IMG/VR virus record: IMGVR_UViG_3300018049_000080
Span: 1 to 32,832 of that record
Direction: 5' to 3' (one strand)
Length of the DNA stretch: 32,832 nucleotides
From: a virus
The notes beneath the pieces were generated by a model that made no database searches, was not told the origin of the DNA, and was given only the letters and a program-made list of their open reading frames with translations. Of the stretch, positions 426 to 32,632 are shown one piece after another. The translations under genes were made by a program, and so were the position numbers. How positions within the stretch are numbered: the first letter of the stretch is position 1; the number at the start of each line of letters is the position of its first letter.

Positions 426-773
426 TTAGATATCAGCTAGTGGGTCTTCTTCGCCGCCTTCTTCACCACCTTCAGCTTCTTTTTCTTTTTCTAACTCCTC
501 TTCTTTATTTTCGGCAGAATAGTCGTTCCAGTACTTTTTTAATGTTGATATATCTTCTTCTGAAAAAGCAGTGTCTCCAAATTTATCATACATTTTGTCA
601 ACTAATTGCTTTTCATTATCAGATGAAACAACAATACCTAGGATTTCTTCTGAAGAAATTTCAGTACCGTCTGTTGTAATCATATCGTCAACCACAACTT
701 CTGATTCTGGTCCAGCATTAATTGCTTCTTCATTAGCAGCTACAAACTGTTCAAATGTTTTAAGTGTATTCAT
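426..773 (-). CDS. Small acidic prohead core protein, gp67-like, with capsid-targeting N terminus
   Basis: This is a 115-residue, very acidic protein. It starts MNTLKTFEQFVAANEEAINAG, which fits the capsid-targeting peptide seen on many proteins here (M-x-x-x-K-x-F-E-x-F). It ends in a run of Glu/Gly followed by EEDPLADI. In T4 the gene between portal (20) and protease (21) is 67, a small acidic core protein with a Glu/Asp-rich tail that is cleaved by gp21. Position, charge and size all fit, though I do not recognise clear sequence identity. Its start lies 17 nt downstream of the portal stop, so it is probably cotranscribed with the portal. Known of the family: gp67 helps shape the prohead and its fragments stay in the mature head. 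The gp67 assignment rests mainly on synteny. Confidence 0.6.
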   Translation of the reverse strand: MNTLKTFEQFVAANEEAINAGPESEVVVDDMITTDGTEISSEEILGIVVSSDNEKQLVDKMYDKFGDTAFSEEDISTLKKYWNDYSAENKEEELEKEKEAEGGEEGGEEDPLADI

Positions 774-790
774 TATACTTAAGTATTTTT

Positions 791-2395
791 TTACATTCCC
801 ATGCCCATGCCCATTGGGTCTTCTGGTTCTTCACCTGCACCCGCTTCTTCTGACCTAGCTTTGTATGCATCATTTGCAGCTTTGTCATCCGGTGTAAGCT
901 TCAAGTATTTATCTACCAAGAAGTCCATATCGAAGAAGTAATCCTCTTCCATTGTTACAGGGTCAGTAATCATTAGGTTGTCGCGCATTTGACCAATAAA
1001 GTCTAATCTACGTTCCATGATTTCCATGTGCTTCAATTCAGCAAACATGTTTTCTTCATTAAATCTAAGAGCGATTTGTGTTCTGAACTGTGGGTCATTA
1101 GCAAAGTCAGGGTACTTTAAACACATTTGTAAGTACATTGGCTTAACAAGAACTTCTTGGAAAGCAGAACGCAGTCTTCTTACAAACTTAGAGAATTTAA
1201 TCTCATCTCTAATCATACCGTCAGCAGCAAGATTGAAATCACCACCACCGTCTTCGTACATAAATCTATTGTAAGGAATCTTAGATACATGCTTAAGTTT
1301 ATCGTTAAAGTACTTAAGTGCTTCTGTATCTGAAAGGTCTGGTCCGTCACCGCCAAGAGTTTCAATCTCTGGAGTTTCACCCTCTTTAGAAGGTAACCAG
1401 TATTCTCTTGAGAACTGAAGCATTGGCTTACCGTCCGTTTCAAGTGTACCTGATTCCCAATCAAAGTCTACAACCTCTTTATAGTTGTTCATCAGCTGTG
1501 CAAGAGACTGCTTAGCTCTTGTCTTAGACTTACCACCCATTGGGATAACAAACTTCATTCTGAATGAAGCATTCGTAACTGCCCAAATCACACGAGTGTG
1601 TTCCATGATTCTCATCAGGTTAAACGACCTAATTAGACGCTCAACATAAGAAACTCTTGAAACTGTAGTAATTGATGAATATGAAATGTAAATGATTTGC
1701 GAATCGTAAAGGACTCTTTCTTTCATCGGGTCATCTTTAAACTGTACCCAAACTTTCTTACCGTCCTCTTTATTAAAACCAGGCATTAGAGTAATTGGGT
1801 CAATTTCTTTGAAGCCAATAATTTCTGTTTGCTCTTCGTTGTAAATAATCTCAAATGAAAGATAACCGTCAATAAGGAATTTACGGAAGAAGTACCAAGC
1901 AGATTGGTCACCGTTAAATCCAAAGTACTGGTAAATGTTTCTGAAAGATCTTTTAAAGTATTTGTCAACCTCGTCTGAAACCTCTAATCCAATAATGTCT
2001 GGGTAACAGAAAAAGTTTTTATCGTCATAAACAATAGTTTCGTCACAAAGAATATCTAAGATATCTTCAATTTCATCATGTAATGAAAACTTTCTAAGCT
2101 CTTCTCTTTTCCCTTCGTAATCTCTATCAAAAAGTGGGATAGATTTACGCATGTTAGTATCTGTCATAGACAGCGCGGCAAATGCACCATATATGTCGTC
2201 ATTGTCAATACCCATTGGGTTCATCTGACCGTATCCAAACGCATCTTCAGTTGGACCAATTGCTTGAGACTGACGAAGAACCATATCATCGTAGTACATA
2301 CCAAACGATGAAAGGCTCTTAAGAGCTGTACTTAAAGTAAACGGTCTCTTACCATATGAAAGAGGACCATTGTTGTTATTTACGAAACCTGCCAT
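791..2395 (-). CDS. 20: Portal vertex protein gp20
   Basis: The 534-residue protein has the length of T4-type portal proteins (T4 gp20 is 524 aa). Typical features are the early ALSMTDTNMRKSIPLFDRDYEGKREELR region (about 73-100), DILCDETIVYDD, the WYFFRKFLIDGYLSFEIIYNEE segment, the YSSITTVSRVSYVERLIRSFNLMRIMEHTRVIWAV core, and KHVSKIPYNRFMYEDGGGDFN. The portal is a dodecamer at one capsid vertex; it nucleates head assembly, docks terminase and is the DNA channel. The C terminus ends in a Met/Gly-rich tail (PMGMGMGM), which is unusual. A TATAAAGA octamer sits 16 nt before the ATG. Downstream come the gp67-like core protein and the gp21 protease, the conserved T4 head cassette. Confidence 0.95.
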   Translation of the reverse strand: MAGFVNNNNGPLSYGKRPFTLSTALKSLSSFGMYYDDMVLRQSQAIGPTEDAFGYGQMNPMGIDNDDIYGAFAALSMTDTNMRKSIPLFDRDYEGKREELRKFSLHDEIEDILDILCDETIVYDDKNFFCYPDIIGLEVSDEVDKYFKRSFRNIYQYFGFNGDQSAWYFFRKFLIDGYLSFEIIYNEEQTEIIGFKEIDPITLMPGFNKEDGKKVWVQFKDDPMKERVLYDSQIIYISYSSITTVSRVSYVERLIRSFNLMRIMEHTRVIWAVTNASFRMKFVIPMGGKSKTRAKQSLAQLMNNYKEVVDFDWESGTLETDGKPMLQFSREYWLPSKEGETPEIETLGGDGPDLSDTEALKYFNDKLKHVSKIPYNRFMYEDGGGDFNLAADGMIRDEIKFSKFVRRLRSAFQEVLVKPMYLQMCLKYPDFANDPQFRTQIALRFNEENMFAELKHMEIMERRLDFIGQMRDNLMITDPVTMEEDYFFDMDFLVDKYLKLTPDDKAANDAYKARSEEAGAGEEPEDPMGMGMGM

Positions 2396-4011: not shown

Positions 4012-4260
4012 TTAAATGCCTTCGCCTTCTTCCAGCTCTAATCTCGATTTTGGAACTCTGATCATATCGTCGTCATTCACAAAACAGATTACAAGGTCAT
4101 CGTTTGCTGATTGAGAATAGCTTAGAGCGTCAATTGACAGCTCCGTGCCCTCTGGCATATCTTCGAATTCTCTTTTCAGAGCACCCGGTACATATCCATT
4201 AGACCTGCTAGTGTCCTCTTCGTTAATTGAGAATTGCTCAAATGTCTTAATATAGTTCAT
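4012..4260 (-). CDS. Small capsid-targeted (internal head) protein
   Basis: This 82-residue acidic protein opens MNYIKTFEQFSINEEDTS. The first ten residues nearly copy those of the gp67-like protein (MNTLKTFEQF) and fit the capsid-targeting pattern. SINEE gives an I-N-E site of the type gp21 cuts after. The mature part (about 65 aa) contains PEGTELSIDALSYSQSANDDLVICFVNDDDMIRVP, which looks like a small beta domain, and ends in LEEGEGI. Its ATG overlaps the stop of the 254-aa gene (TAATG). I infer that it is packaged in the head and processed on maturation, as T4 internal proteins are. Its function after packaging is unknown. Confidence 0.7.
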   Translation of the reverse strand: MNYIKTFEQFSINEEDTSRSNGYVPGALKREFEDMPEGTELSIDALSYSQSANDDLVICFVNDDDMIRVPKSRLELEEGEGI

Positions 4261-18335: not shown

Positions 18336-19739
18336 CTATAATTCGGCCAGCTTATCTTTTACTTCTTTGGCTTTGGTATAATAATCATAAGAAGTCTTTT
18401 TGTAAGCCTTTCTTTGACCGTACAAATCAGAAAGAATCTGCTTTAAAATAGAATCTTTCTTATCATACACAACACCGTTAGCACAAACAATCTCATCTTT
18501 ATTCTTGCGACGCTCTGGAATCTGAGAGACTGGAATAATATCTTTGTACGAATCCGGTGAGATATTATATTGTCTCATAATTGAAGGATACAGTGACGCA
18601 AAGTCAAATGCAGATACACCTTGATAGAATCCTACTTTAGGTTGCTTCACATAAGCACCTGCATATTTACCATCCTTCTGACTGTCTTCTTTCTTCTCAG
18701 ATGCAACACACTTGTTATCTTCCGCTAACTTACGTGCAATAAGAGCTTCGGTAACCGATACAGGTGACGCAGCTTTATACAATGGCATCTTTGTAATCGA
18801 TGCAAGTGTAAGAAGTACTTCCATTGATTTTAGTTTCTGGTCAATGTAATATACCAAAACTGAATCGACAACGTTGTAGTAAATGTATTTAACGAAATCT
18901 TGCTCGTAAAGGTCCTGCAGCGACCCCTGGAACTTAATCTTATTCAACTTAAGTACTTGTCCAGAAACATAGTCGAGTGCGTTAGACTCCTTTACTTTAA
19001 CCGAGCGGTCGTATTTGTCATATAACTGCATGTAATCAAGAATACCCATATGAAGTGGTCTTGAATCTACACGGTCAAGTGCTTTAGTCTTTGCTGCGGC
19101 GGTAATGTCAATCTGTAAACGCTTGCATCGGTTTACAATGTACTGCCAGTCATAATTGATAAAGTTCCAACCTGTCATCATTGGGAACTTAGGCAAGAAT
19201 CTGTTGATGAATGTGAATACCATGTCATACTCAGAATCAAACTTACGGTAGTCAAAGGTCCAATCAGAATCAAGTGTCTTAAAATACTCATTAGTATCAT
19301 CTTGAATCTTCTGAATCTTTTCTTGAGGCATGTCTTCAAGACCTAGTACAATCGCTTTACGTTCTGGCGTAATGATTGAGAACGCAAGGATTCTTGTCTT
19401 AGCCTCTTCTGGTTTAGGGAAACCGTCAACAATCTCTGTCTCAATATCGACAAAGTATGTTTTAGGCATTGTAGGCTCAAAGATAACTTTCTTATCGTTC
19501 TCTGGTAAATTATCCAAGAATGAAATAAGAGAGAACTTACTGTATTGTCTTGAGCGACCTTCTTTTACTGGTCGACCGTCCCAATTTCTTAAAGAGCTGT
19601 GTTTGTATCTGTCGTTCTCATCTGTGATGTACCAGTTTTTATACTGTTCGATTGGATAACGACGAAACTTAACTTGGCCTTCTTTATCGTAATACGATAC
19701 GATAATTTCTTTGTCTTTTTGTTCTACATCTAATAGCAT
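18336..19739 (-). CDS. 43: DNA polymerase gp43, N-terminal fragment (exonuclease and palm motif A)
   Basis: The 467-residue protein holds the family B N-terminal domain, the 3'-5' exonuclease and the first part of the palm. Exo I is FVDIETEI (Asp98, Glu100), Exo II is GWNFINYDWQYI (Asp197), Exo III is YYNVVDS (Tyr288, Asp292). Polymerase motif A is SAFDFASLYPSIMRQYNISPDS (about 376-397, Asp379). It ends in the first fingers helix, GQRKAYKKTSYDYYTKAKEVKDKLAEL, followed by TAG. Motifs B and C lie in a separate gene 4.3 kb downstream (12796-14013). The break falls near the tip of the fingers, where T4 has a long hairpin, so the parts could reassemble. It is coupled to the dUTPase-like gene by TAATG and followed by a terminator. 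Confidence 0.94.
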   Translation of the reverse strand: MLLDVEQKDKEIIVSYYDKEGQVKFRRYPIEQYKNWYITDENDRYKHSSLRNWDGRPVKEGRSRQYSKFSLISFLDNLPENDKKVIFEPTMPKTYFVDIETEIVDGFPKPEEAKTRILAFSIITPERKAIVLGLEDMPQEKIQKIQDDTNEYFKTLDSDWTFDYRKFDSEYDMVFTFINRFLPKFPMMTGWNFINYDWQYIVNRCKRLQIDITAAAKTKALDRVDSRPLHMGILDYMQLYDKYDRSVKVKESNALDYVSGQVLKLNKIKFQGSLQDLYEQDFVKYIYYNVVDSVLVYYIDQKLKSMEVLLTLASITKMPLYKAASPVSVTEALIARKLAEDNKCVASEKKEDSQKDGKYAGAYVKQPKVGFYQGVSAFDFASLYPSIMRQYNISPDSYKDIIPVSQIPERRKNKDEIVCANGVVYDKKDSILKQILSDLYGQRKAYKKTSYDYYTKAKEVKDKLAEL

Positions 19740-22303: not shown

Positions 22304-22996
22304 TTACCTATTTTTAGTGAAATTACTAAAAGTAGTTACATTAACTGCAGCGTGTCTACGTTTGCGTATTTCTTCCATCTCAAGGTCAGGGTCTCTAGCT
22401 GGGCCAATTTCATATTCACCCTCACCTAACTCTTCACCTTCACCTTGTTCTGGTTTAAAAGCTTTTAATTGTTCTTGTTCTTTAATAAACTCTTGAACAT
22501 TTAAAAGTTTCTTTTTTTTCTTTTTAGCTTTACCTTGACCTGCTGGAACATCACCTGAACCTGGGGCATCTCCATTGGGTAAAACAACATCGCCCATACC
22601 ACCAAGCATACTTGGGGTAACAGCTGATAAATCTTCTTCAATTGTTTCATCTTCTACAATGTAGTCATGCTTAACCATAATTTCCCTAAGGTCTTTTTCA
22701 AAAGCTGATAACAACTCTTCCCTCATTTTTGGGTCATGCTTGTATCCGATAGCACCTGAAATTTTAGTTAGTATTTTACGTAAATCAATTTTCACTACAC
22801 CTTCTGTAACCTCTTCCGGTATATCGTCGTGTTTTGTTTCAGCAAAATCTTTAAGGTCTTTAAGTGACATACCGTCAACAAGCTCTTTAACTTTATCTCT
22901 ATATGACGCATCTACATCAGAAAGTGGCATATCACCGGATTTAACCGCGTATGCAACTCCCATTAGACGTTGTTGTGATTTACTTTGACTAGGCAT
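22304..22996 (-). CDS. DUF3008-like N-terminal domain protein with targeting-like segments
   Basis: The 230-residue protein begins MPSQSKSQQRLMGVAYAVKSGDMP, followed by MSLKDLKDFAETKHDDIPEEV (about 43-63). That S-x-x-QQR-hhG-hAYAhK-x-G ... hS-x-x-D-h-x-DFA-x-TKH-x-x-hP pattern I know from small phage proteins of the DUF3008 type. The middle holds helices and a flexible Gly/Pro/Lys stretch (GQGKAKKKKKK). Two segments resemble the capsid-targeting peptide: LNVQEFIKEQEQL, and the very C terminus VTTFSNFTKNR. It lies directly downstream of the long polyprotein gene with a 14-nt gap. I infer a head-associated protein; its biochemical role is unknown. Confidence 0.7.
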   Translation of the reverse strand: MPSQSKSQQRLMGVAYAVKSGDMPLSDVDASYRDKVKELVDGMSLKDLKDFAETKHDDIPEEVTEGVVKIDLRKILTKISGAIGYKHDPKMREELLSAFEKDLREIMVKHDYIVEDETIEEDLSAVTPSMLGGMGDVVLPNGDAPGSGDVPAGQGKAKKKKKKLLNVQEFIKEQEQLKAFKPEQGEGEELGEGEYEIGPARDPDLEMEEIRKRRHAAVNVTTFSNFTKNR

Positions 22997-23010
22997 AATC
23001 TATAACTTAA

Positions 23011-26000
23011 TTACCAAGCGTAATCAAACGATTTAATTTTTTTAATGTCATCAGCAACTCTCTTAGCATAAGCTTTAGCTTCTTTTTCATAGAAACCTGA
23101 TGAGTATCCCTTGTCTTTTTCTTCTTTCGCCTCTTGTGTATAGCTTACGTATTTACTGTATGCATCTAAAATGTTTGACATATGTTGAGAAGCATCTCTC
23201 ATTCTAACATCACTACCCTTTTTGTTTTTACCAATAAGAATATCACCGTAACGTGTAAATTCACCTTTAGCTAAACCATCTTTAATTTGGGCAGACAAAT
23301 CATTAATAGCTTTTTCAACCATTTTATCTAAAGGAAGTTTAGAAGCTTTAGTTGCTAAAATTTCTCTGTATCTATACATGTTAGCATCTTTAAACTCTTT
23401 ATCAGATTTAAATGCAATAGCACCTGATTTAGCATCGGCTCTTTGCTCTACTTTATCAGTAGACTTGAATACATCATTATTAAGCCATACAACAACTGCT
23501 CTATCTGCAAGCTCCGCCGCTCTCTTTATATTGTAAATACCTGTAGCACCGTAACCAGAGTATCTTTTATCACCACCAACTGCATTATCTGAAGCAGCTT
23601 TCATAAGTGTCGCTGGCATCTTTTTAGTATCGTGTGTTGCACCTAAGAATTCTTTACCTCTTGTAATTCCAATAATACCTGGTTGAATTTTGCTTTCCCA
23701 GTCACTGTCGCCGTAAGGATTTTCTTTTTCGTTATCTGCAATATAGAATACTGCAAATTCATTATCTTTTTGGTAAGACTTGTACGCTGTTTGAGGGTCA
23801 ACATCTCTTAACGCTGCATCTGGTAGTTCGTCTAGTTTGTACTTAGTTAAACCGTAAAATGCTCTAGCTAAACTTTTAATTGCGTTACCGTCAGCACCTC
23901 TCATTGTTAAAAGGTTTCTTAGCTTTGAAGACTTGAATGCTTCTGTAACTAATTCAGCGTTTTCCGTAGTAACCGACTCAAGTACACCGATTGCAATATC
24001 ACCAACTTCTCTATCACCTTTTTCAACATACTTTTTGTTTAGAATAGCGATTGGGTACTTTTTCAGTTGATACATTGGCATCATACCTGTTGAGAAATCA
24101 TACTTGATACCCGCTTCTTTAAGCTTAAGACCGATGTTCATAAACGTTACATCTTTAACAAGCTCTGCTAATTGGTCTAGCATTGCATCGTGCTTACCTT
24201 CATTAACTACTGATTCATTCTTTAATTGTCTTAAGAATTCTTCGCGCTCTTCTTCAGTTTCAAGTGCATCGTACTTATCTTGATTAGCATTTCTTTCAGC
24301 TGTTGTTTTACCCCAATCAAGAGCATTCATTTTAATCTTTGCAGCTTCTTTAATATATGGTGCTTCTTTTTTGTCCCACATATCTTTAGACATTGTGCCA
24401 ATTGCTTTAACACCCACTGTGTTTAGTACTTCATCTTCTTCTTCTGACTTGTACTTGTCCGCTGCTTTTTTATTATGGAATGTACCTAGAAGGTGCTTGC
24501 CTTCTTTATCTTCATACCATACAACAAATGCACCTTCATTAATTGTGTTAGATTCGAATTCAGAGAATGATTCAAATACAAATTTAGTGTTTTCCATAAC
24601 GTTACCCGCTTCTTTTTCTTTTTCCCATTCACTCTTAGTCATCATACCTACTTGGTTCAGTACTCTTGAGGCCATGTCTACCATTTTTTCAGCCGACTTT
24701 TTACCAGTGTGTTCTGAGTAAAACTTTTTCATAGCTTCACCTGTATAAACAACCCAGTGTTCTCTAGCTTCATTCATATCGTCTTCGTTAATTGTAATTT
24801 GCTTAAGAGCTCTTTTACCAAACTTTGATAGTGAAATACCGTCTTCAGATACGTTAAAGTACTTAGCGTTTCTTCTTGACCACTTACCTGGGTGGTTAGA
24901 CATTTCTTTTAAGATAGCGTTAAACTCTTCTTGAGTGATTTTGCCATCAGCGATTGCTTCTAGCATTTTGTTTCTAATTCTTGCTGATTTACCAGCTGTA
25001 ACTGCTGGGTAATTTTCAGTATATCTTCTTTTAAGTGTAACCGTTCTTTCATTAAGTTCGTTGTACGATTCGCTTACTAACTCGATTGTGCCACGAGTTT
25101 CTGTTGCATTTTCTAACATCTTTGCTTTTTCGTCATTCAAAAATTCTACAAAATCATCTAGGCTATCGCGGTATGCGTTTTTCTTGCCAGAGTCAGACAT
25201 GCTTGAATGAACTATCAGACCTTGCTTTTTGTGGTCTTCAACATCATCAACTCTAAAAACAGTACCTCCTTTAATTTTAAATTCAGCACCTGGTTTAATA
25301 TCTTCAGCTTTAATAGACTCGTCAACTGTTTCTGTTGTCATGCCCTCTGCTAATTCAGCGTCAATATCTTTAAGACCAACCGCTGCATCTAATTCAGCTT
25401 CAAGTTGTTTCTTAGAAGCTGTTAAAGATTTAAGCTCGTCTAATAAGTCCTCTTTTTCTTGACCTTCTGCTTTCTTATATTTAGCAACAACGTCTTTCAT
25501 AATTGCGGTAACATTACCCCATTCCTTTTGAATCTTAGCAATTGACTTAGCTTCATTAATTGTTGATTCAGTCACTATTTTACTAATTTTTGATCTAACA
25601 TAGGCTTCGTCATCTGATGATAAATGATTATCATTATTAGATAGAAGTTGGTCCATAGCGTTTGCTAATTTATCATCAACCTTTACTGCCGTTTTGTTAC
25701 CCGGTTTAGACTCTGCTCTTTTTATATAGTTAGAAAGCATTGTATTTAAAGTATATCCGTATACACCCGCAATTCTTTCACCTTGGTCCATTTTAAGAAC
25801 CAAAATTCTATGAAGTCCGTTTAATTGGTCTGCTGTAAACGTAACGCTTGCTTCATTAACTACAGATTCATAAAACCAACCTTGCTTAGGGTCTGACTTA
25901 ATCTTAGTAGTAAACTTATGTCTTTTCCAGTTGAAGTCTTCGTCTCTTGTTAAAGCTGGATATAAAACTTTTTTATTATCGCTGTAGTAAAGGTCAATGC

Positions 26001-26241
26001 CGATATCTCTACCTTCTTCACCATTCATTTCGGCCATTAGCTCAAAATAGTCTTTACCACCGAAGATACCATAACCTTCATAGTTTTCTTCATGCCACAT
26101 GTTTCCTTTATCATCAAACATGTAAATATCAGCACCTGACCTAGCACTGATTGCCTTATTATCACCTAAGGTTTTAAACGAGAACATGCCCTCATTTAAA
26201 GGCATGTCATTATTTGTAAAGTCGTTAAAAGATTCAAACAT
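23011..26241 (-). CDS. Giant modular head-targeted polyprotein with repeated protease sites
   Basis: The 1076-residue protein starts MFESFNDFTNNDMPLNEGMF, a targeting-like peptide ending in L-N-E|G. Sites matching the gp21 rule or close variants follow at about E130 (VNE|A), E230 (INE|A), E299 (LAE|G), E398 (LNE|R), E569 (INE|G), E681 (VNE|G) and E767 (VTE|A), often after a Phe/Leu-x-E-S. They divide it into pieces of about 70-115 residues plus a 309-residue C-terminal part. Pieces differ: a beta module (GYGIFGGKDYFELMAEMNG), a coiled coil (240-300), a basic helical piece (400-480), and two related pieces (about 495-548 and 571-625). No piece is recognised. The long final part (AFKSSKLRNLLTM to the end) may be an enzyme. 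It has a late-type octamer 17 nt upstream. Confidence 0.85.
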   Translation of the reverse strand: MFESFNDFTNNDMPLNEGMFSFKTLGDNKAISARSGADIYMFDDKGNMWHEENYEGYGIFGGKDYFELMAEMNGEEGRDIGIDLYYSDNKKVLYPALTRDEDFNWKRHKFTTKIKSDPKQGWFYESVVNEASVTFTADQLNGLHRILVLKMDQGERIAGVYGYTLNTMLSNYIKRAESKPGNKTAVKVDDKLANAMDQLLSNNDNHLSSDDEAYVRSKISKIVTESTINEAKSIAKIQKEWGNVTAIMKDVVAKYKKAEGQEKEDLLDELKSLTASKKQLEAELDAAVGLKDIDAELAEGMTTETVDESIKAEDIKPGAEFKIKGGTVFRVDDVEDHKKQGLIVHSSMSDSGKKNAYRDSLDDFVEFLNDEKAKMLENATETRGTIELVSESYNELNERTVTLKRRYTENYPAVTAGKSARIRNKMLEAIADGKITQEEFNAILKEMSNHPGKWSRRNAKYFNVSEDGISLSKFGKRALKQITINEDDMNEAREHWVVYTGEAMKKFYSEHTGKKSAEKMVDMASRVLNQVGMMTKSEWEKEKEAGNVMENTKFVFESFSEFESNTINEGAFVVWYEDKEGKHLLGTFHNKKAADKYKSEEEDEVLNTVGVKAIGTMSKDMWDKKEAPYIKEAAKIKMNALDWGKTTAERNANQDKYDALETEEEREEFLRQLKNESVVNEGKHDAMLDQLAELVKDVTFMNIGLKLKEAGIKYDFSTGMMPMYQLKKYPIAILNKKYVEKGDREVGDIAIGVLESVTTENAELVTEAFKSSKLRNLLTMRGADGNAIKSLARAFYGLTKYKLDELPDAALRDVDPQTAYKSYQKDNEFAVFYIADNEKENPYGDSDWESKIQPGIIGITRGKEFLGATHDTKKMPATLMKAASDNAVGGDKRYSGYGATGIYNIKRAAELADRAVVVWLNNDVFKSTDKVEQRADAKSGAIAFKSDKEFKDANMYRYREILATKASKLPLDKMVEKAINDLSAQIKDGLAKGEFTRYGDILIGKNKKGSDVRMRDASQHMSNILDAYSKYVSYTQEAKEEKDKGYSSGFYEKEAKAYAKRVADDIKKIKSFDYAW
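24367..24531 (-). repeat. Module copy 2 within the 1076-aa polyprotein
   Basis: Residues about 571-625 (VVWYEDKEGKHLLGTF..., VLNTVGVKAIGTMSKDMWDKK) resemble residues about 494-548 (HWVVYTGEAMKKFY..., VLNQVGMMTKSEWEKEK). Both have a VVxY start, a Lys-rich KKAA/KKSA centre, VLNxVG, and an MxKxxW(D/E)KxK end. Copy 1 is at 24598-24762. The similarity is at protein level only. Confidence 0.55.
24598..24762 (-). repeat. Module copy 1 within the 1076-aa polyprotein
   Basis: Residues about 494-548 of the polyprotein. It pairs with the copy at 24367-24531, sharing the VV-x-Y, KK-S/A-A, VLN-x-VG and M-x-K-x-x-W-D/E-K elements. The copies are separated by a linker with a targeting-like FVFESFSEFE and an INE|G site. 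Confidence 0.55.
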
Positions 26242-26258
26242 CTTACTATGATTGTATT

Positions 26259-26266
26259 TTATTATA
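26259..26266 (-). promoter_or_regulatory. Putative T4-type late promoter before the 1076-aa gene
   Basis: The minus strand reads TATAATAA within AATATATAATAA, exactly 17 nt before the ATG at 26241. It overlaps the stop codon of the upstream gene. Confidence 0.45.
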
Positions 26267-28109
26267 TATTAGCAATAAATTGTTCAAATGTCATGATTGT
26301 TTCATTTGACTCTGCTAACGCCATTGCTTGCTCTAATTTAGATTTAAGGTCGTTGTACATACCGTGAATAGACTTAGGTGTAAGCTTCTTAAATAACTTT
26401 TCGTCACCAGCTAACATTGCTTCTCTAACTTGAGTAGCTGAAATGTTTTTACCTGTTCTTGGAATCTCAAATAAACCAAAGTCTGGTCTAACATCTAATT
26501 GAGACCTGTATTTTGGCTCATCAACCTGGTAACCATACGTTTTTAATCTGTCAGTACCTGTACCCCATAAAACTGGTTCGTACTTAGGTCTCATTTCGTT
26601 AAACATAAGGTCAATACCTGCTGAGTTAATAATGTATACCTCTTCAATCGGAAGTTCTCTTTTAAGAGCGTTTAGCATTTCAAGCTGTGTTTGCTCATCG
26701 TAAGGTCTTTTAAAACCGTCTTCTTTCTTTTTAGAAACTGACTTCACTAGGAAGATTACTACAGGGTAACCGTTTTGTTCGTGAATTGTTTTTACCACTT
26801 TAGCATGGCCTAATGTAAATGGTTGGAATCTACCAACAAACATATTTACAAGCTTCTTACCTTGTTCAGGGTGTTTTACTGTAAATACGCGTCTTGCTTC
26901 GTTTACAGAAGCATCAATTCTATCTTTTTTGATATAGTTCTGGAAATCTAACACGTCACCTTCTTCTATTTTTGCAGACACATGTGAATCAATAGCTTCA
27001 ACAATTTCATTCATTTGATTGACCATATCTTCAGATAGGATGTCCGTTGTTTTTGTTCTCTTAGCCTTAAATGAGCTAAGTGTAATTTTAAACAGCTCTG
27101 CTAATACTGGATTATTCGTAAGTCTAATCGTCTCCTCATTTTCTATAAATGAAGTATTAAGCTTAAACGATTCTTTTTTAGCAAAGTCTGCTGATTCAAA
27201 GTTAACACCAATATATTTAGGTGCATTTTCTTTGATATAGTTATTGAACACTTCTGACATAAGTTCAAGGAACCTACGGTACTTGTCTTCTTTAACTAAT
27301 TTATGCTTTTTAAAATCATATTCAGATAGATACTCAATTAAATCTACAATAGTGATTTGGTAAATATCTGATGACTTTCTAGGGCCAGCTGATTCATTAA
27401 TTTTTCTAAAATCTTCAATTTTAAACGGCGTCATTTTTTTACCGTCTACAAATGAAACTACCAAGCCTTCAATTTCACTATCAAGATTTTCTTGAAGTGC
27501 TGAATTCCTAAGATTTGAATTAAAAATTGAGAACAAATCTCTTGTAAAAGACCTGTCTTCATATTTTCTAGCAAACTCATCATCAGTAAGCTCTAACATT
27601 TTAACAAGATCCTCCTTTTGGTTGTGGCTCAATTGACCCTCAAAAATAACTGGTGGTTTTTGAACCTCTAGTTTTTCTGCCCATTTATTAAGAACCTGAG
27701 TATCTCTAATTACTTTAGAAACTGTCTCATTAGTTGGATTTAATACTTGAATGTGTGTAAGTACTAAATTGTTTTTAGGAAGTAGTGAGTACTTGAAGTT
27801 GGGAGTTTCACCGTCAATTAAATAGTCAAATCCAAACTTCCAATCTTTAGGCATTTCTTCTCTAATTTCCATAGGAAGACCTTTAAAGTGCATAATAGCA
27901 GGTTCATAAAAACTAACGATTGTTCTGTCAATAACATTAAGAGGTGTTGATTGACCAGACTTATAGTATTCGTTTTTAATATCACTTGCTTTAACGTGAA
28001 AAGACGACGCTGCTAATTTCTCAACAACGTGAATCTTTTGCTCTAGCATTTTATAAAAATGATTTCTAGACGTTTCGTTATAATAGTCCCTTAGTTTTTG
28101 AAGTGCCAT
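26262..28109 (-). CDS. Ligase-like domain fused to NMN-adenylyltransferase-like domain, C-terminal targeting peptide
   Basis: The 615-residue protein has two parts. The C-terminal part (about 419-600) is a nucleotidyltransferase of the HxGH class: FVGRFQPFTLGHAKVV (424-439), LVKSVSKKKEDGFKRPYDEQTQLEML, LWGTGTDR, and ISATQVREAML (556-566), which equals the ISSTxxR motif. This is closest to NadR/NMNAT, which makes NAD from NMN and ATP. The N-terminal 400 residues include IEGLVVSFVDGKKMTPFKIEDF, like motifs IV and V of nucleic-acid ligases, and LVLTHIQVLN, like motif IIIa. No KxDG is seen, so this half may be inactive. The last residues, TIMTFEQFIANI, copy the targeting peptide but at the C terminus, after LAE|S. 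It lies 9 nt from the KTDG ligase-like gene. Confidence 0.8.
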   Translation of the reverse strand: MALQKLRDYYNETSRNHFYKMLEQKIHVVEKLAASSFHVKASDIKNEYYKSGQSTPLNVIDRTIVSFYEPAIMHFKGLPMEIREEMPKDWKFGFDYLIDGETPNFKYSLLPKNNLVLTHIQVLNPTNETVSKVIRDTQVLNKWAEKLEVQKPPVIFEGQLSHNQKEDLVKMLELTDDEFARKYEDRSFTRDLFSIFNSNLRNSALQENLDSEIEGLVVSFVDGKKMTPFKIEDFRKINESAGPRKSSDIYQITIVDLIEYLSEYDFKKHKLVKEDKYRRFLELMSEVFNNYIKENAPKYIGVNFESADFAKKESFKLNTSFIENEETIRLTNNPVLAELFKITLSSFKAKRTKTTDILSEDMVNQMNEIVEAIDSHVSAKIEEGDVLDFQNYIKKDRIDASVNEARRVFTVKHPEQGKKLVNMFVGRFQPFTLGHAKVVKTIHEQNGYPVVIFLVKSVSKKKEDGFKRPYDEQTQLEMLNALKRELPIEEVYIINSAGIDLMFNEMRPKYEPVLWGTGTDRLKTYGYQVDEPKYRSQLDVRPDFGLFEIPRTGKNISATQVREAMLAGDEKLFKKLTPKSIHGMYNDLKSKLEQAMALAESNETIMTFEQFIANI

Positions 28110-28118
28110 ATTTAATTG

Positions 28119-29408
28119 TTATCTACCGTATTTAATGATACCCATTAGCTGATTAATCGCAGCAAAGGTTCCCGTTAACTTATATATTTTGCCATTATAC
28201 TTGAACACTAAACCCTCTGTTGGAATGATTGATTCAATACCTCCGATTCTATTTAGTCTTTCAAGCTCGGCTTCTACCTTTTCAATTTGCTCAATGTCAC
28301 CGCCCTTTTTAATTTTGTCAGCCTCTTTTCTAATTTGATTATGCAGTCTTTGCATTTCCGCGTCTGGAGATGCTGCAACAAAATTAGAAGCATTCTTTAA
28401 AATGACTGAACCTAATTCAAGGAAAAGGTCTTCAAATGGTCTAATGTTTTCTTTGTACTTTTTATTAAGGTCCTCTTTATCAAACTTTTTAATAGCTTCC
28501 ATTTGTTCTGGAGTCACTTCTTTTGCAAGAGTTCTCATGTTTAGAGTCTTCTTGTCTTTATATGCCCATCTAAGTAGTAATCCCTCTTTCTTATCTTGTG
28601 TAAGGTCACCAAAGTTTTCTTCAATTTGTTCTCTCCACCACATTTCATGGTATCTTGCAACCTCGTCATGGCCTGTTAGATTGTACCTCTTTTGAAGTGC
28701 ATCTACTTTTTTCATGAAATAAGGTTTACGAGTTTCGAAATCAATATCTTTTTGTAGCTTAAGTACCTGGGGTGGAATAATGTTGAATACCTTACCAGCT
28801 CTTGCATTAACATTGTCTAAAAGCTTTGCAATCTCTTTAGCCGACCTTGCACCCATATCACCAATAATGTTGCCCTCACCATCAGTCTCTTTAATACCGT
28901 GGAATTGAATAACATCTCTATCGTAGTTGATTACGTTAGGGTTCTTTGAATAGATAAGCTCCATGTTCATGAAGTTCTTACCATTGTTAAAATACTTTTC
29001 TTGGTCAGCTGGTTTTAATTTAGTAAGTGATGATGATAAATCTTGAGCAGCGAATGTAAATGTGTCCCTAACCAACTCAGATTTGTGCTCAGCAAACATT
29101 TTTGTAATACCCGCTAAATCTATAGGCGCCATTAATTGTCCCTTGTTTCTAGCAAAAAGAACTTGACCGTCTTTAACAGTAGCAAATACGTTTTGACCAT
29201 CAGTCTTTTCAGTTGGCTCTTCGTCAAAAGTCATTTCACCTTGAAGACCTGCCTCGATAAACTTTCTAAAGTCATCAAAAGTAAGACCCTTATCATCAAA
29301 TGGGTGCATCATATGACCAGCTGCGCCACCTTCTAAGATTAAATCAGCGTTATATGAGTTATGAGCTTTTTCTAAAAGAAACTCATTAAAAGAAACAAGT
29401 AATTTCAT
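28119..29408 (-). CDS. Head-targeted nucleic-acid ligase-like (KxDG) nucleotidyltransferase
   Basis: The 429-residue protein begins MKLLVSFNEFLLEKAHNS, a targeting-like peptide. It then shows covalent nucleotidyltransferase motifs in order: motif I EKTDGQNVFA (Lys68-Thr-Asp-Gly71), motif Ia LFARNKGQL (Arg87), motif III/IIIa NFMNMELIY (146-153) and VIQFHGI, motif IV TEGLVFKYNG (about 397-406), and motif V KIYKLTG (407-413, Lys410). These are the residues that bind ATP and carry AMP in RNA and DNA ligases. Between IIIa and IV is a helical insertion of about 220 residues. Substrate (RNA or DNA) cannot be told. The start overlaps the upstream stop (TAATG). I infer that it is packaged in the head. 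Confidence 0.72.
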   Translation of the reverse strand: MKLLVSFNEFLLEKAHNSYNADLILEGGAAGHMMHPFDDKGLTFDDFRKFIEAGLQGEMTFDEEPTEKTDGQNVFATVKDGQVLFARNKGQLMAPIDLAGITKMFAEHKSELVRDTFTFAAQDLSSSLTKLKPADQEKYFNNGKNFMNMELIYSKNPNVINYDRDVIQFHGIKETDGEGNIIGDMGARSAKEIAKLLDNVNARAGKVFNIIPPQVLKLQKDIDFETRKPYFMKKVDALQKRYNLTGHDEVARYHEMWWREQIEENFGDLTQDKKEGLLLRWAYKDKKTLNMRTLAKEVTPEQMEAIKKFDKEDLNKKYKENIRPFEDLFLELGSVILKNASNFVAASPDAEMQRLHNQIRKEADKIKKGGDIEQIEKVEAELERLNRIGGIESIIPTEGLVFKYNGKIYKLTGTFAAINQLMGIIKYGR

Positions 29409-29890
29409 TATTTAATTATCTTTGGATTCTTTTTAAGAACCTTTTCCATTTGGTCCTCATCTAAAGTTGCAAAACCAAACTCACCGAACATTTCTTCTGC
29501 AAGTTCATTAGCCATATCTATATTAATGTACTTATCCATATCATCCTCAGACAAAGTTGCAAATCCCATTTCACCTTCAAACTTAACTGCTAATCTATCT
29601 AATTTTTTAAGATACTGTCCTTCGTTAATTTCAGCTGATTCTTGAACAAATACAACTTCACCTGTTTTAGATTCTACATGAATCTTAAGGTTTGGGTACT
29701 TGTCTTTTAATACTGACATTGAAGCTGGAACTGCCATTGGAGTCTCTACCAATTCTTGGTGAACAACTTTTTTACCGTCAATCACTACAAGTGTCACTGG
29801 ATAGCTAGCGTCTTTTGCTGCTTTATGAACTTTACCTTTGTTAACTTTTGCTTCGTTAACAAAATCTTCAAATAGTCTAACCCTTTTCAT
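29408..29890 (-). CDS. Small head-targeted protein with internal GFATL repeat
   Basis: The 160-residue protein opens MKRVRLFEDFVNEAKVNKG, the targeting peptide with a V-N-E|A site. The first domain (about 20-90) contains YPVTLVVIDGKKVVHQELVETPMAVPASMSVLKDKYPNLKIHVESKTGEVVFV. A second site, EINE|G (about 113-116), precedes a tail of two similar segments: GEMGFATLSEDDMDKYIN and GEFGFATLDEDQMEKVLK. It would therefore yield two packaged peptides. Its first 24 bases are identical to those of the next gene upstream (29892-30221). Function unknown. Confidence 0.75.
   Translation of the reverse strand: MKRVRLFEDFVNEAKVNKGKVHKAAKDASYPVTLVVIDGKKVVHQELVETPMAVPASMSVLKDKYPNLKIHVESKTGEVVFVQESAEINEGQYLKKLDRLAVKFEGEMGFATLSEDDMDKYINIDMANELAEEMFGEFGFATLDEDQMEKVLKKNPKIIK
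29867..29890 (-). repeat. 24-bp exact direct repeat encoding the targeting peptide (copy A)
   Basis: Positions 29867-29890 are identical to 30198-30221. Both encode the first eight residues, MKRVRLFE, of neighbouring genes. The identity extends over all codon positions, pointing to recent duplication or recombination of the targeting-peptide segment. Confidence 0.9.
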
Positions 29891-29891
29891 A

Positions 29892-30221
29892 TTATTTTAC
29901 TGTATATTTTAACAACTTACCGTCCTGCTCTACTTCAATTTTACCCTTTGCTAACTTATCAATTTGGTTTATAGTTTCATCTGGGTTTTGAGCTGCTAAA
30001 TAGAAGTTATCTTTAATTTTTTGAGATTGACCTGGCTTAGCATTGAACTGTTTAACTAAATCACCTTTATCATAACCAGTCCCACCTACATTAACAACTC
30101 TCCAAGAATTATTATAATAAACACTGTGTTTTAAATCAGCATTTAATAATAGATCTACTAAATATTTGTAGTCTGCTGTTCTTTCATTTAAGAATTGTTC
30201 AAATAGTCTAACCCTTTTCAT
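29892..30221 (-). CDS. Small head-targeted protein
   Basis: The 109-residue protein opens MKRVRLFEQFLNERTAD, a targeting peptide followed by an L-N-E site. The remaining 95 residues form an alpha/beta domain: YKYLVDLLLNADLKHSVYYNNSWRVVNVGGTGYDKGDLVKQF, then NFYLAAQNPDETINQIDKLAKGKIEVEQDGKLLKYTVK. It is basic overall, so it could bind DNA in the head. No family recognised. Gaps to the neighbours are 1 and 12 nt, so it belongs to one operon of similar genes. Confidence 0.75.
   Translation of the reverse strand: MKRVRLFEQFLNERTADYKYLVDLLLNADLKHSVYYNNSWRVVNVGGTGYDKGDLVKQFNAKPGQSQKIKDNFYLAAQNPDETINQIDKLAKGKIEVEQDGKLLKYTVK
30198..30221 (-). repeat. 24-bp exact direct repeat encoding the targeting peptide (copy B)
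   Basis: Identical to 29867-29890, at the 5' end of the adjacent gene. A third, diverged version is the start of the gene at 30234-30536. Confidence 0.9.
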
Positions 30222-30233
30222 TTTGTTGTTTTG

Positions 30234-30536
30234 TTATTTTGACCAAGGATGGTTTTTCTTCACCATATTAAATGCATTAATAAGACCTAATACATCTCTG
30301 TCTTTTTCAGAATGGTAAATTCTACCTTCGTCTTTAAAGTATTTCCAAAGGGCTTCTTTAGAGCCTTTACGCATACCGTAGTCGACATCTTCTTTGTTAT
30401 CAGTGATTACTACGTTATCTTTATGAAGCTTCTTAAAACCATCTACAAACTCTCTGTACTCATAGCCTACAAGCTCGTTGTATGTTCTAAAGACACCTTC
30501 GCCAATAAACGCTTCAAATAGTTTTACCTTTTTCAT
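30234..30536 (-). CDS. Small head-targeted protein
   Basis: The 100-residue protein opens MKKVKLFEAFIGEGVFRT, the targeting peptide with an I-G-E|G site that fits the gp21 cleavage rule exactly. The mature part is basic and mostly helical: YNELVGYEYREFVDGFKKLHKDNVVITDNKEDVDYG, then MRKGSKEALWKYFKDEGRIYHSEKDRDVLGLINAFNMVKKNHPWSK. It follows the terminator at 30551-30589 directly, so it may head the operon of targeted genes. No family recognised. Confidence 0.75.
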   Translation of the reverse strand: MKKVKLFEAFIGEGVFRTYNELVGYEYREFVDGFKKLHKDNVVITDNKEDVDYGMRKGSKEALWKYFKDEGRIYHSEKDRDVLGLINAFNMVKKNHPWSK

Positions 30537-30550
30537 AATATGAATATAAG

Positions 30551-30589
30551 AAAAAAAGCCGACATAAAAAAATTATGTCAGACTTTTTT
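30551..30589 (-). terminator. Rho-independent terminator after the 677-aa gene
   Basis: On the minus strand an A-rich arm with GTCTGACATAA pairs with TTATGTCGGC around a T-loop and runs into TTTTTTT. It is AT-flanked and could also work on the plus strand. It lies 10 nt after the stop of the 677-aa gene. Confidence 0.75.
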
Positions 30590-30598
30590 AATAGTTTT

Positions 30599-32632
30599 TT
30601 ATAGTACCTCGATTAACCAAGTAGTTCCATGTCTACCTTTACCGATTTTCCATTTAAGGAACATACCAGGTCTAACACCCATAATCATACCATCACCATT
30701 TTCAATAGATTTTAACTCTTCATCAAAGTCAAATCCCATGTAATCAATTTTGTGAAGGCCGTATGACCCTTTTTTGAAAGTATCTATAATTTCTGATTCA
30801 GAACCGCCTTCGTAAATAGTTAGCTTAACTTTTTTACCTTCAGCCTTCTTAATAAATTCCTTAGCGTCTTCTAGTTTTCTTTCTTCGTAACCTTCTTCAA
30901 TCACTTCCTGTGATTCTTTAATAGTTACTGGGTAAGTTTTACCGTCAAATTCAAACTCTTCTTCACCAGCATCTTTAGCCTTCTTAGCTGCGGCTGCAAA
31001 CGCTCTACCTTCAGAAATTAATGATTCTTGTAGTTGCTTTCTTATGTTAGGGTCCCTCATGATTGAGTTCATAAATTCAATAACGTCGTCAAATTCAAAA
31101 CCTTCGTCAATGTGTGACTGTACGATTGATAGGAAAGCTGATCTAAAATCACGTAGGTCTCTTGTATCTGTTAGACCTGACATTCTTTTCATAGTTTCTT
31201 TGTCTAATGCTTCAGTTACTGAACCTTCAAATTCTTTTTGTTTTTTAAGAATAACCTCTAGTTGCTTTACCATTTTTTTGATATCTGAACCAAATGATTT
31301 AACATCTAATGGCGCGTCTATATCTGGGTCAAAAGTATTTTCTAAACTTCTTTTAGCCTGCATTAGTTTGCTTGATGCATGCTTCTTATTACCTGAACCT
31401 AACGCTTCTGTAATTTCATCAGCTAGCTCTTCATCTTCCTTATCAACAGACTTTACTGGATAAGTTTTACCGTCAAACTCAAACTCGTCCTTATCGTCAG
31501 CAATCGCTTTTAGTCTCGCTGTGTTAAAAGCTGAACCTTCGTTGATTCTTTGTACTTTGATATCTAGTTCGTTAGCTTCACCTAAAAATTTATTTAATGT
31601 GTCTCTAAGTGCTGTAGCTGATGAATTCTTTTTAAATCTAGACTCCATGTAAAGTGCAACAGCTTCAATAATAGCATATCCATTATATTTAACACCTCTA
31701 GCTATTTCAGTACCTAGTTCATACACCTTCTCCATCATTATCCTCTTGCTAATCTGGATTGGCATACCACCCATTTCCTTAATAAAGATAGTTGGGGCTA
31801 TGAAGTTTGCAAAGTTAATTGCTCTTGCAGCTTGATTAGCCTCTTGACTAAAGTTAGCGTCAATCATTGCAGCTTTAAGAGCTTCTTTTAATAACCATGC
31901 AATTGTTTGGTCGGCTACTGTTTTACCACCTGCAAATGCCGGGTGAGCTGCCATAAATTTATTAATAGCTGCTAAACCTCTAACCGCATCTTTTTGAGAA
32001 CGTGCATCTAGTGCTTCATTCATAAAATCTACTTTAGTAGACTCTTCGATAAACTCATCAGACTCAGAGTTATCCATACACCAACCGTAATCACAATCAG
32101 CCATTACAGTTTGAAGATCTTTTTTCTTACCTGTTAATACAACAACTTGTGTACCGTATGTTGGACCGCCATAAGAAACGATTTCCATTTCTACCTTATT
32201 TTTCTTAAGTAGCTTTGCAAGGTCTTTAGATTTTGGGTCTAATGCGTCTAGCTCAACTGTTGCTTCAAAAATAGTAGTATCTTCATTAACCACTGACTCG
32301 TTAGCAAATTCTTCTGCGTTTTCCTCGTCTTCAGCATCAACGTCTTCAACTGGTAGTTTTTCACCGTCAACTTCAAACTCTTTTTCACCTTTAGCAATAG
32401 CTTCTGCTCTTGCAGCACCAAAGGCGTTACCTTCAGCTGTTAGCTCTGTCATAAATGCATCAAGGTCTTCTTCGTTGATATCTGTGATTGAAGATGCATT
32501 GTACTTAGATAGTAGTTCATTAAACGCTGCGGTAGAAGCTTCACGTTTACTTGCAACTTCTTTTAGTCTAGCTTCCTCTCTTAATTGATTCTGCAGTTGA
32601 GAGAAAGACTTAAATGATTCGATTTTTTTCAT
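30599..32632 (-). CDS. Large modular head-targeted polyprotein with three repeats
   Basis: The 677-residue protein starts MKKIESFKSFSQLQNQLREEA, a targeting-like peptide. It carries three copies of a 28-residue unit (68-95, 366-393, 542-569): G-x-AF-x-x-A...EFEFDGKTYPV. Each follows a Glu that fits or nearly fits the protease rule (TAE|G, INE|G, ISE|G). Other possible sites are VNE|D (117) and FMNE|A (206). Between repeats are an alpha/beta piece with two Cys (DCDYGWC, 179-185), an alpha-helical piece of about 150 residues, a helical piece (410-535), and a C-terminal domain ending KGRHGTTWLIEVL. No domain is recognised. A TATAAAAA octamer lies 17 nt before ATG. I infer a packaged polyprotein cut on head maturation. 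Confidence 0.82.
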   Translation of the reverse strand: MKKIESFKSFSQLQNQLREEARLKEVASKREASTAAFNELLSKYNASSITDINEEDLDAFMTELTAEGNAFGAARAEAIAKGEKEFEVDGEKLPVEDVDAEDEENAEEFANESVVNEDTTIFEATVELDALDPKSKDLAKLLKKNKVEMEIVSYGGPTYGTQVVVLTGKKKDLQTVMADCDYGWCMDNSESDEFIEESTKVDFMNEALDARSQKDAVRGLAAINKFMAAHPAFAGGKTVADQTIAWLLKEALKAAMIDANFSQEANQAARAINFANFIAPTIFIKEMGGMPIQISKRIMMEKVYELGTEIARGVKYNGYAIIEAVALYMESRFKKNSSATALRDTLNKFLGEANELDIKVQRINEGSAFNTARLKAIADDKDEFEFDGKTYPVKSVDKEDEELADEITEALGSGNKKHASSKLMQAKRSLENTFDPDIDAPLDVKSFGSDIKKMVKQLEVILKKQKEFEGSVTEALDKETMKRMSGLTDTRDLRDFRSAFLSIVQSHIDEGFEFDDVIEFMNSIMRDPNIRKQLQESLISEGRAFAAAAKKAKDAGEEEFEFDGKTYPVTIKESQEVIEEGYEERKLEDAKEFIKKAEGKKVKLTIYEGGSESEIIDTFKKGSYGLHKIDYMGFDFDEELKSIENGDGMIMGVRPGMFLKWKIGKGRHGTTWLIEVL
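30926..31009 (-). repeat. EFEFDGKTYPV repeat, copy 3
   Basis: Codes for residues 542-569 of the 677-aa polyprotein: GRAFAAAAKKAKDAG then EEEFEFDGKTYPV. It follows LISE, a good match to the I-x-E protease rule. Confidence 0.8.
31454..31537 (-). repeat. EFEFDGKTYPV repeat, copy 2
   Basis: Codes for residues 366-393: GSAFNTARLKAIADD then KDEFEFDGKTYPV. It follows RINE, a perfect I-N-E|G site. Confidence 0.8.
32348..32431 (-). repeat. EFEFDGKTYPV repeat, copy 1
   Basis: Codes for residues 68-95: GNAFGAARAEAIAKG then EKEFEVDGEKLPV. It follows LTAE, a poorer match to the protease rule, and is the most diverged copy. Confidence 0.75.

Follow-up and report, generated by a model that had tools for sequence, protein, structure and literature searches.

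Among described phage systems, the internal proteins IPI, IPII and IPIII of bacteriophage T4, which inhibit type IV restriction enzymes (PMC9026906, PMC12373910), are the precedent for injected anti-restriction proteins. As described in PMC9026906, residues 4 and 7 of the T4 capsid-targeting sequence (CTS) determine targeting and residues 8 and 10 processing, and the prohead protease gp21 cleaves after L/I-x-E. Here we analyze the IMG/VR virus record IMGVR_UViG_3300018049_000080, an entire 32.8-kb contig (32 832 nucleotides, hereafter the window) with a T4-like myovirus gene content, and in particular a putative cargo gene cluster on its minus strand (22304-32632) that contains small tagged proteins along with two large mosaic proteins of 677 and 1076 amino acids (aa). 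We are fairly confident that this cluster of a marine phage extends the T4-type CTS/prohead-protease system to cargo in the form of polyproteins, which are packaged and cut, with probable injection of the products.

The likeness to T4 IPI, IPII, IPIII and Alt consists in two N-terminal aromatic residues three positions apart, the Glu of an h-x-E site (h, hydrophobic), an S77 protease, variable cargo behind a conserved leader and the order of the portal, core and protease genes. Compared with T4, this phage type has more tagged genes, predicted polyproteins with a protease site at their joints, a conserved C-terminal FxxF in a 615-aa protein (T4 Alt is processed C-terminally, and no C-terminal FxxF tag is described for Alt in the sources drawn on here) and enzyme-like cargo (RNA-ligase-like, Acb1-family and ATP-grasp). 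The polyvalent proteins of Iyer et al. 2017 are also large mosaic, multidomain phage proteins predicted to enter the host with the DNA and were compared by their authors to viral polyproteins, but, as outlined there, they are released via embedded peptidase domains (PMC5512222), whereas in the present case the joints match the head protease. In the Dar system of phage P1, anti-restriction proteins are likewise packaged via an N-terminal signal, that of DarB, but the part of that report used here describes no consensus signal among the Dar N-termini and mentions no polyprotein (PMC9024508). In the giant phages phiKZ and SPN3US, a T4-type head protease cleaves several inner head proteins behind a Glu (A-x-E in SPN3US), and long propeptides are cut several times; as far as these accounts go, the pieces are propeptides there (PMC5694885, PMC10052503), unlike the shuffled modules between sites here. 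The CTS, the gp21-type protease and mosaic injected proteins are known parts, and polyprotein cargo with head-protease joints would be the addition. The portions of the open-access literature covered revealed neither a packaged Acb1 nor a polyprotein of packaged proteins that a head protease cleaves at the joints, which is not proof of absence.

The preliminary description of this sequence quoted eight T4-like N-termini, and all eight are found where it placed them, six in the cluster (the 677-, 100-, 109-, 160-, 429- and 1076-aa proteins; Table 1) and one each at 426-773 and 4012-4260. They share an aromatic-x-x-aromatic element (FxxF), usually followed by h-x-E, which is the layout of the mapped T4 CTS and fits its determinants. 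This combination occurs near the N-terminus of 8 of the 38 window genes, compared with a mean of 1.0 and a maximum of 5 for shuffled N-termini (n=500) and a mean of 1.0 and a maximum of 4 at internal positions (n=200); the strict form [FY]E.[FY] is found in 5 of the 38 (shuffle mean 0.4, maximum 3). The corresponding counts in six large related contigs are 12/144, 13/151, 17/163, 16/212, 12/290 and 19/222, with shuffle means of 2.2-3.8, the 12/290 of contig G007 being below its largest shuffle, 14. The spacing of the Glu is more specific: it is located exactly at +3 from the second aromatic residue in 59 of 103 tagged proteins (shuffle mean 12.1, maximum 24, n=5000), these 103 being the subset that fits the parsing pattern among 117 genes of the six contigs, lookalikes included. 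The selection required either FE.F or FxxF together with an h-x-E within 12 residues, which makes a nearby Glu expected in most of them, but not this exact spacing. The residue at cleavage position P3 is hydrophobic or Thr in 56 of the 59. T4 itself, scanned as a positive control, yields matches for 11 of 259 genes (shuffle mean 3.8, maximum 10), including ipI, ipII and ipIII, and the leader of IPII and IPIII, MKTYQEFIAE/A (here and below, the slash marks the cut or predicted cut), shares the Glu spacing. Tagged genes are adjacent to each other more often than in shuffles, clearly in G001, G004 and G009, and weakly in the other three contigs, where the observed value is reached by 31, 54 and 78 of 2000 shuffles. 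The motif is not equally common in replication enzymes, a possibility raised in the preliminary description: it is present at the N-terminus of none of the ten scanned replication or nucleotide genes of the window, nine of which have a PHROG match in the replication/nucleotide class or as a recombinase. Capsid targeting of the tagged proteins, as that description had proposed, is well supported at the sequence level by the match to the T4 CTS, the T4 control, the tag on the gene in the gp67/gp68 position and the tag-free replication genes.

The gp21-type protease claimed at the left edge of the window is borne out by a Pfam match above the cut-off, and the locus shows the features of the T4-type CTS/internal-protein system, namely the aromatic residues at i and i+3, the P1 Glu and an S77 (gp21) protease next to the portal and a core gene. 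The protease is partial in the window and longer in the related contigs G001 and G002, where it forms the N-terminal part of a 715-aa and a 666-aa protein, respectively. In G001 (96060-98207, that is, L199:16060-18207), and also in G002 and G004, the protease begins a long h-x-E-rich protein (50 such sites per 715 aa in G001), which is probably a protease-scaffold fusion; T4 has 21 and 22 as separate genes. The acidic protein between the portal and the protease starts with a similar peptide in most of its listed homologs. All nine major capsid protein sequences of the relatives, recovered from 14 loci and some of them identical, carry a LINE/[AS] close to the N-terminus as well as a KLYE/[DE]A.

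The two large proteins appear to be chains of modules of 39-309 aa. The pattern [ILVMFT][NT]E[AGS] occurs 8 times in the 1076-aa protein (shuffle mean 0.71, maximum 5), and [ILVMFT].E[AG] occurs 13 times in the 677-aa protein (shuffle mean 4.30, maximum 12). For 16 of the 18 joints proposed in these two proteins, including 9 of the 10 in the 1076-aa protein, another neighbor context exists elsewhere; in the 677-aa protein, the number of distinct upstream contexts per module is 15-31 for five modules and 1, 3 and 4 for the other three. Across the distinct upstream contexts of seven modules, an h-x-E within 2 residues of the joint was found in 27/27, 32/34, 20/28, 22/23, 10/10, 23/24 and 16/16 cases, the modules with 22/23 and 23/24 being versions of one repeat with common contexts; three further modules with 1-3 contexts gave 0/1, 3/3 and 3/3. 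The Glu could be part of each module rather than of the joint, but its assignment to the joint is favored because the rule holds before unrelated modules and behind unrelated upstream sequence.

Table 1. Features of the window discussed in the text; module borders and cut sites are predictions, and a slash marks the predicted cut
Feature	Position	Strand	Remarks
gp21-type prohead protease, N-terminal part, cut by contig end	3..365	-	Pfam PF03420 Peptidase_S77, 43.7 bits (cut-off 27); phrog_207 head maturation protease, E 1.4e-30
Acidic CTS-bearing protein between portal and protease	426..773	-	Position of T4 gp67/gp68 core proteins (T4 order 20-67-68-21); start MNTLKTFEQF
Portal protein gp20	791..2395	-	phrog_213, E 1.1e-69
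82-aa protein	4012..4260	-	N-terminal CTS MNYIKTFEQFSINEE; start MNYIKTFEQF
DUF3008 protein	22304..22996	-	PF11450, 39 bits; no N-terminal CTS; C-terminal FxxF at 22307-22336
1076-aa predicted polyprotein	23011..26241	-	CTS 1-17 and ten proposed modules: 18-130, 131-230, 231-308, 309-398, 399-491, 492-569, 570-632, 633-681, 682-767, 768-1076; joints LNE/G, VNE/A, INE/A, VDE/S, LNE/R, MNE/A, INE/G, IKE/A, VNE/G, VTE/A
Module D1, C-terminal 309 aa of the 1076-aa protein	23014..23940	-	h-x-E within 2 residues in 27/27 distinct upstream contexts, 2 of these being N-terminal CTS
Module KRRYTEN, residues 399-491 of the 1076-aa protein	24769..25047	-	h-x-E within 2 residues in 32/34 distinct contexts, within 8 in 34/34
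615-aa protein	26262..28109	-	N-terminal half without known family; C-terminal nucleotidyltransferase domain, PF01467, 41.2 bits; C-terminal FxxF at 26265-26294
429-aa RNA-ligase-like protein	28119..29408	-	CTS MKLLVSFNEFLLE/; Glu13 invariant in 20 aligned; fold matches
160-aa CTS protein	29408..29890	-	Two proposed modules, 14-90 and 91-160; MKRVRLFEDFVNE/A and EINE/G
109-aa CTS protein	29892..30221	-	N-terminal sequence MKRVRLFEQFLNE/R
100-aa CTS protein	30234..30536	-	N-terminal sequence MKKVKLFEAFIGE/G; 13 homologs listed
677-aa predicted polyprotein	30599..32632	-	N-terminal region 1-67 and eight proposed modules: 68-123, 124-206, 207-365, 366-409, 410-474, 475-541, 542-580, 581-677

Several modules exist both inside long proteins and as separate tagged proteins. 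Two relatives encode D1 as a separate CTS protein (MNKIHTTFESFVNESLEVNE/AFKSSKL in G004 and MKHVQLFEGFVASQKLNE/AFSSQ in L064). The KRRYTEN module lies near the N-terminus in many relatives (13 of its 34 contexts are N-terminal) and closely follows a CTS in G007 (MKKFEEFIGEG/KITLKRRYTEN). A separate cluster behaves in the same way, with MKRIKLFEEFLNE/SEETYNDYPAAA in G009 and an internal copy in a 233-aa protein of G006 after ESLNE/AEETYNDYPAAA, and G004 encodes a DPGILKA-type module as a separate tagged protein, this module being internal in G002, where it follows LISE/. In an automatic test, h-x-E preceded 147 of the 242 mature starts of CTS proteins that recur inside other proteins, compared with a background of 0.157; among 60 of these cases that were listed, a shift of one to a few residues accounts for many of the misses. 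Segment boundaries tell the same story in a set of 57 polyprotein-type proteins, 51 of which yielded boundaries: an h-N-E lies within 8 residues of 269 of 965 segment starts and 336 of 1002 segment ends, compared with 106.5 (sd 10.1) and 107.5 (sd 9.4), respectively, for random positions in the same proteins. Thus, modules that occur independently or in another order, with the joint at the predicted protease site, are found in these sequences, and cleavage at the joints appears fairly well supported. Full cutting of the cluster would yield about 25 polypeptides (10 + 8 + 2 modules and five other proteins), so that, given the predicted polyproteins, the count of about ten proteins in the preliminary description is probably an underestimate of the final products.

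Neither of the two large proteins gave a Pfam match over the cut-off or contained a recognizable peptidase domain, which leaves room for unrecognized domains, and their PHROG matches are weak. In the phage-record collection, the 1076-aa protein matched PTm1/PTm5 over a single 57-aa stretch, and the 677-aa protein had no match. Three IMG/VR contigs that differ in metagenome number encode a 100% identical 677-aa protein, and therefore, its chain did not arise by misassembly of a single contig. The model of D1 is of fair confidence (pLDDT 85.6, pTM 0.53), and its fold has no clear match in PDB or BFVD, the VIA rows falling mostly over the helical C-terminal part. ORF-082 of Tenacibaculum phage PTm1 (L247:11770-12960, 396 aa) is modular as well, with one module common with the 1076-aa protein and repeated NE-type joints, and isolate PTm1 may be usable for a virion proteome test.

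Several observations weigh against the polyprotein and tag interpretation. The window joints were drawn at h-x-E sites; the phages behind the boundary and context counts are related, which makes these counts non-independent; no other context exists for two joints, namely those preceding residue 131 in the 1076-aa protein and residue 410 in the 677-aa protein; ES..NE is not enriched in the 677-aa protein, with one occurrence, a value reached by 339 of 2000 shuffles; and 95 of the 242 mature starts lack a preceding h-x-E. On the side of the tag, there are lookalikes, namely the window 2OG oxygenase (10464-11036, MIAVFDNFLNEE, a loose match) and, in relatives, gp32 (MADFDIFNL) and SbcC-like proteins (AFKNFASYG). 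There is no excess of FxxF plus h-x-E in the isolates immuto (3/219) and PAU (4/291), and PTm1 has 9/300 compared with a mean of 5.7; in PAU, there are 6 FE.F starts, with a shuffle maximum of 5.

The main rival explanation, which we consider rather unlikely but worth serious attention, is that the single tagged proteins are cargo and the 677- and 1076-aa proteins serve as scaffold in the head core, are fragmented and mostly leave the head, in the manner of T4 gp22 and gp67. T4 core proteins are indeed cut into several fragments that are mostly lost from the head, as described in PMC9026906, the protease protein of the relatives is very rich in h-x-E, and several modules of the 677-aa protein are short (39-56 aa). 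However, in the relatives a long scaffold-like part, with a role suggested by its position and composition, is already fused to the protease, and modules shuffle between genes; the fairly confident predicted fold of D1 and the stand-alone tagged forms of D1 and of the DPGILKA-type module also count against core proteins bound for disposal.

Alternatively, the h-x-E joints could be linkers that mark domain shuffling in large proteins that stay intact, similarly to the polyvalent proteins, a group of mosaic multidomain proteins for which injection is predicted in PMC5512222. Linkers common to the modules would aid recombination, but the joint resembles the h-x-E that closes the CTS of single proteins, the same modules lie behind a CTS or behind a joint depending on the relative, and h-N-E is less frequent at boundaries in other mosaic proteins of the same contigs (61/815 starts and 102/1033 ends, compared with 40.6 and 45.0 expected), so that intact linker proteins seem improbable, although the ends in these other proteins are above random as well, a further point against joint cleavage. 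Convergence of the N-terminal motif, for example, as an amphipathic start that binds some other phage protein within infected cells, appears the least probable of all: it would account for the FxxF-type starts of gp32 and the SbcC-like proteins of relatives and of the 2OG oxygenase, and for the weak enrichment of bare FxxF in the window (9/38; shuffle mean 3.3, maximum 10), but not for the T4-like Glu spacing, the motif on the gp67-position gene beside the portal and the protease, the ten replication or nucleotide genes without it, or the discrete leader on some Acb1-like proteins and not others.

Under packaging and cutting of polyprotein cargo, the N-terminal peptide, of the general form M-K-h-h-K-x-F-E-x-F-h-x-E, would carry the individual proteins into the core of the assembling prohead, a role perhaps shared by the FxxF core that ends the 615-aa protein. 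The gp21-type protease would cut after h-x-E, removing the tag from the single proteins and, at the joints of the 677- and 1076-aa proteins and, in a short form, of the 160-aa protein, setting free many small proteins within the capsid. These products would stay with the DNA, and by analogy with T4, most of them would probably be injected at infection, with at least some acting against host functions or first-response defenses. We infer packaging, cleavage, retention, injection and anti-host action from the comparisons above, and for an anti-defense role, the support comes from one family in relatives. If this is correct, capsid cargo, so far difficult to predict from a genome, would be readable from sequence via the tag and the cut site, at the scale of the 117 genes that fit the tag rule in the six related contigs, lookalikes included, and the relatives could be searched for injected proteins that disarm bacterial defenses. 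If the polyproteins are cut in the head, they would be a bacterial-virus counterpart of viral polyproteins, using the head-maturation protease, and an exchange platform for anti-defense modules.

The cargo of the relatives lends substance to the notion of an arsenal in the preliminary description, above all through an Acb1-family protein with a perfect CTS. Pfam matches over the cut-off were obtained for 7 of 20 scanned CTS-pattern proteins of relatives and for none of the other 13; the seven are Acb1 (G009), RimK-like ATP-grasp (G002, G003), D-ala-D-ala-ligase-type ATP-grasp (G007), DUF5824 (G001), PGA_cap (G007) and the lookalike gp32 (G004). A PHROG scan of ten such proteins added a polynucleotide-kinase match in G004. 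Acb1, first identified as T4 gene 57B, degrades the signals of CBASS, as reported in PMC10419184, and the Pfam Acb1 model recovers T4 57B. The CTS protein of G009, located outside the window, matches this model with 30 bits (cut-off 27) and contains the motifs HCT and HMT. Two H-x-T motifs are what we take to be the Acb1 rule, and by its sequence, the protein is an Acb1-family member and a predicted anti-CBASS factor; some relatives are annotated as 2'-5' RNA ligase superfamily. Acb1 matches were found in 2 of 19 related contigs, both CTS-bearing. In a wider Acb1-like set, a CTS is seen by eye in 12 of 36 distinct starts (an automatic flag marked 16 of 37, one of them blank, 4 of the 16 being chance matches by eye; L332, with no readable start, was omitted). 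The Acb1-like 2H phosphoesterases L304-L334 have varied short leaders, several ending in h-x-E (MKxIKLFEEFxNE, MIKLKDLITE, MELNEQLTKIKTMMGINE), which are possibly different packaging dialects.

Taken a step further, this picture suggests, with slightly better than even confidence on our part, that a large uncultured marine phage clade loads its capsids with rapidly shuffled effectors, both cut polyproteins and tagged single proteins, including anti-CBASS and RNA-repair enzymes, which would provide counter-defense from the first moment of infection, new effectors being slotted between two head-protease sites.

Two candidates were considered and dropped. T4 Acb1 (57B) starts with MMEFKDF, but FxxF is present in 14 of 29 readable starts of T-even-type homologs (one blank and one distant start omitted), and we do not claim it as a hidden CTS protein; an ADP-ribosyltransferase reading, by eye, of the CTS protein L214:5800-6765 had no family support. 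T4 gp61.1 (54 aa; NC_000866, 18966-19130, minus strand) starts with MKTFKEFIKED, very similar to an internal-protein leader.

Within the cluster, the tagged proteins of the preliminary inventory stand, whereas it had missed the RNA-ligase-like fold of the 429-aa protein as well as the polyproteins. FxxF is present, by pattern, in all 45 distinct N-termini of the homologs of this protein, with L010 being a shortened start and a chance match; the P1 Glu13 is invariant in 20/20 aligned sequences, and the region that follows is variable in both length and sequence. The KTDG, MEL and EGLVF blocks, of which KTDG is invariant, resemble nucleotidyltransferase motifs. The structural model is of moderate quality (pLDDT 68.9); the top 22 rows of VIA-align are RNA/DNA ligases at a level graded as middling (Z 4.7-6.2), the first two rows of Foldseek are T4 RNA ligase 1 (E 0.07 and 0.29), and profile searches with this protein gave no match, so that an RNA-ligase-like identity is likely, not proven. 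For the 100-, 109- and 160-aa proteins, PHROGs and Pfam gave nothing convincing; relatives of the second half of the 160-aa protein are found in other, longer proteins. A PADLOC search with ten proteins, five of them from the window, gave no match.

The genes recur in the order polyprotein, small CTS proteins, ligase-like protein, 615-aa protein, polyprotein, DUF3008 protein; in 77 of 78 loci, the 615-aa gene lies no more than 1.5 kb behind the ligase gene, and a relative of the 677-aa type is located upstream in 71 of 81, in a synteny set that counts some contigs twice. The 615-aa and DUF3008 proteins of the cluster lack the N-terminal motif and end in ...TIMTFEQFIANI and ...VTTFSNFTKNR, respectively. 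Among the homologs of the 615-aa protein, most with bodies 48-60% identical, an FxxF at the extreme C-terminus is present in 43 of 45 distinct C-termini, the exceptions being longer proteins of 1117 and 1122 aa, and is preceded within 14 residues by h-x-E in 43 of 45 if Ala is allowed at P3 (background 0.46) and in 40 of 45 without Ala. However, C-terminal FxxF does not exceed the chance level in the window (3/38; shuffle mean 0.9, maximum 4) and is within the shuffle range in the six related contigs, and a C-terminal tag as a general rule was dropped on these grounds; it is also found in only 10 of 32 distinct C-termini of DUF3008 homologs. Based on its conservation in that family alone, the C-terminal tag is a good guess for the 615-aa family. 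The third C-terminal FxxF of the window belongs to an SbcC-like protein (5858-7531 and relatives; conserved end NGFSKFEIE), which is expected to be cytoplasmic, and therefore, not every C-terminal FxxF is a tag. A search for 615-aa relatives in bacterial and archaeal genomes gave 16 pattern matches, none of which was confirmed. In Microcystis phage Mel-JY01 (L248:7308-9227), a protein annotated as cytidylyltransferase-like holds a relative of the ligase-like protein in its C-terminal part, a fusion that may link the functions of the neighboring 615- and 429-aa proteins.

Elsewhere in the window, the recognized genes include the portal, DNA end protector, head closure, tail sheath stabilizer, late sigma factor and replication/nucleotide genes. 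Confirmed related stretches in viral contigs number 21 for the 677-aa protein, 283 for the ligase-like protein and 305 for the portal. The closest isolates as judged by the portal are PAU and PTm1, with ∼32% identity, and a Bacteroidota host is suggested because matches fall in phages of Flavobacterium, Tenacibaculum and Maribacter. In several relatives (for example, L161, G003, G007 and G002), the counterpart of the 82-aa tagged protein is the C-terminal portion of a larger protein. Some relatives of the gp67-position protein carry extra N-terminal sequence (L128:5479-6525, L134:5239-6048, L139:7967-10483 and L147:11613-12254), and two of these (L128 and L134) begin with a CTS; judging by these two, cargo may be fused to the core gene as well. 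The DNA polymerase of the window is split over two open reading frames, at 18336-19739 (N-terminal part) and 12796-14031 (C-terminal part), with ribonucleotide reductase and other genes in between.

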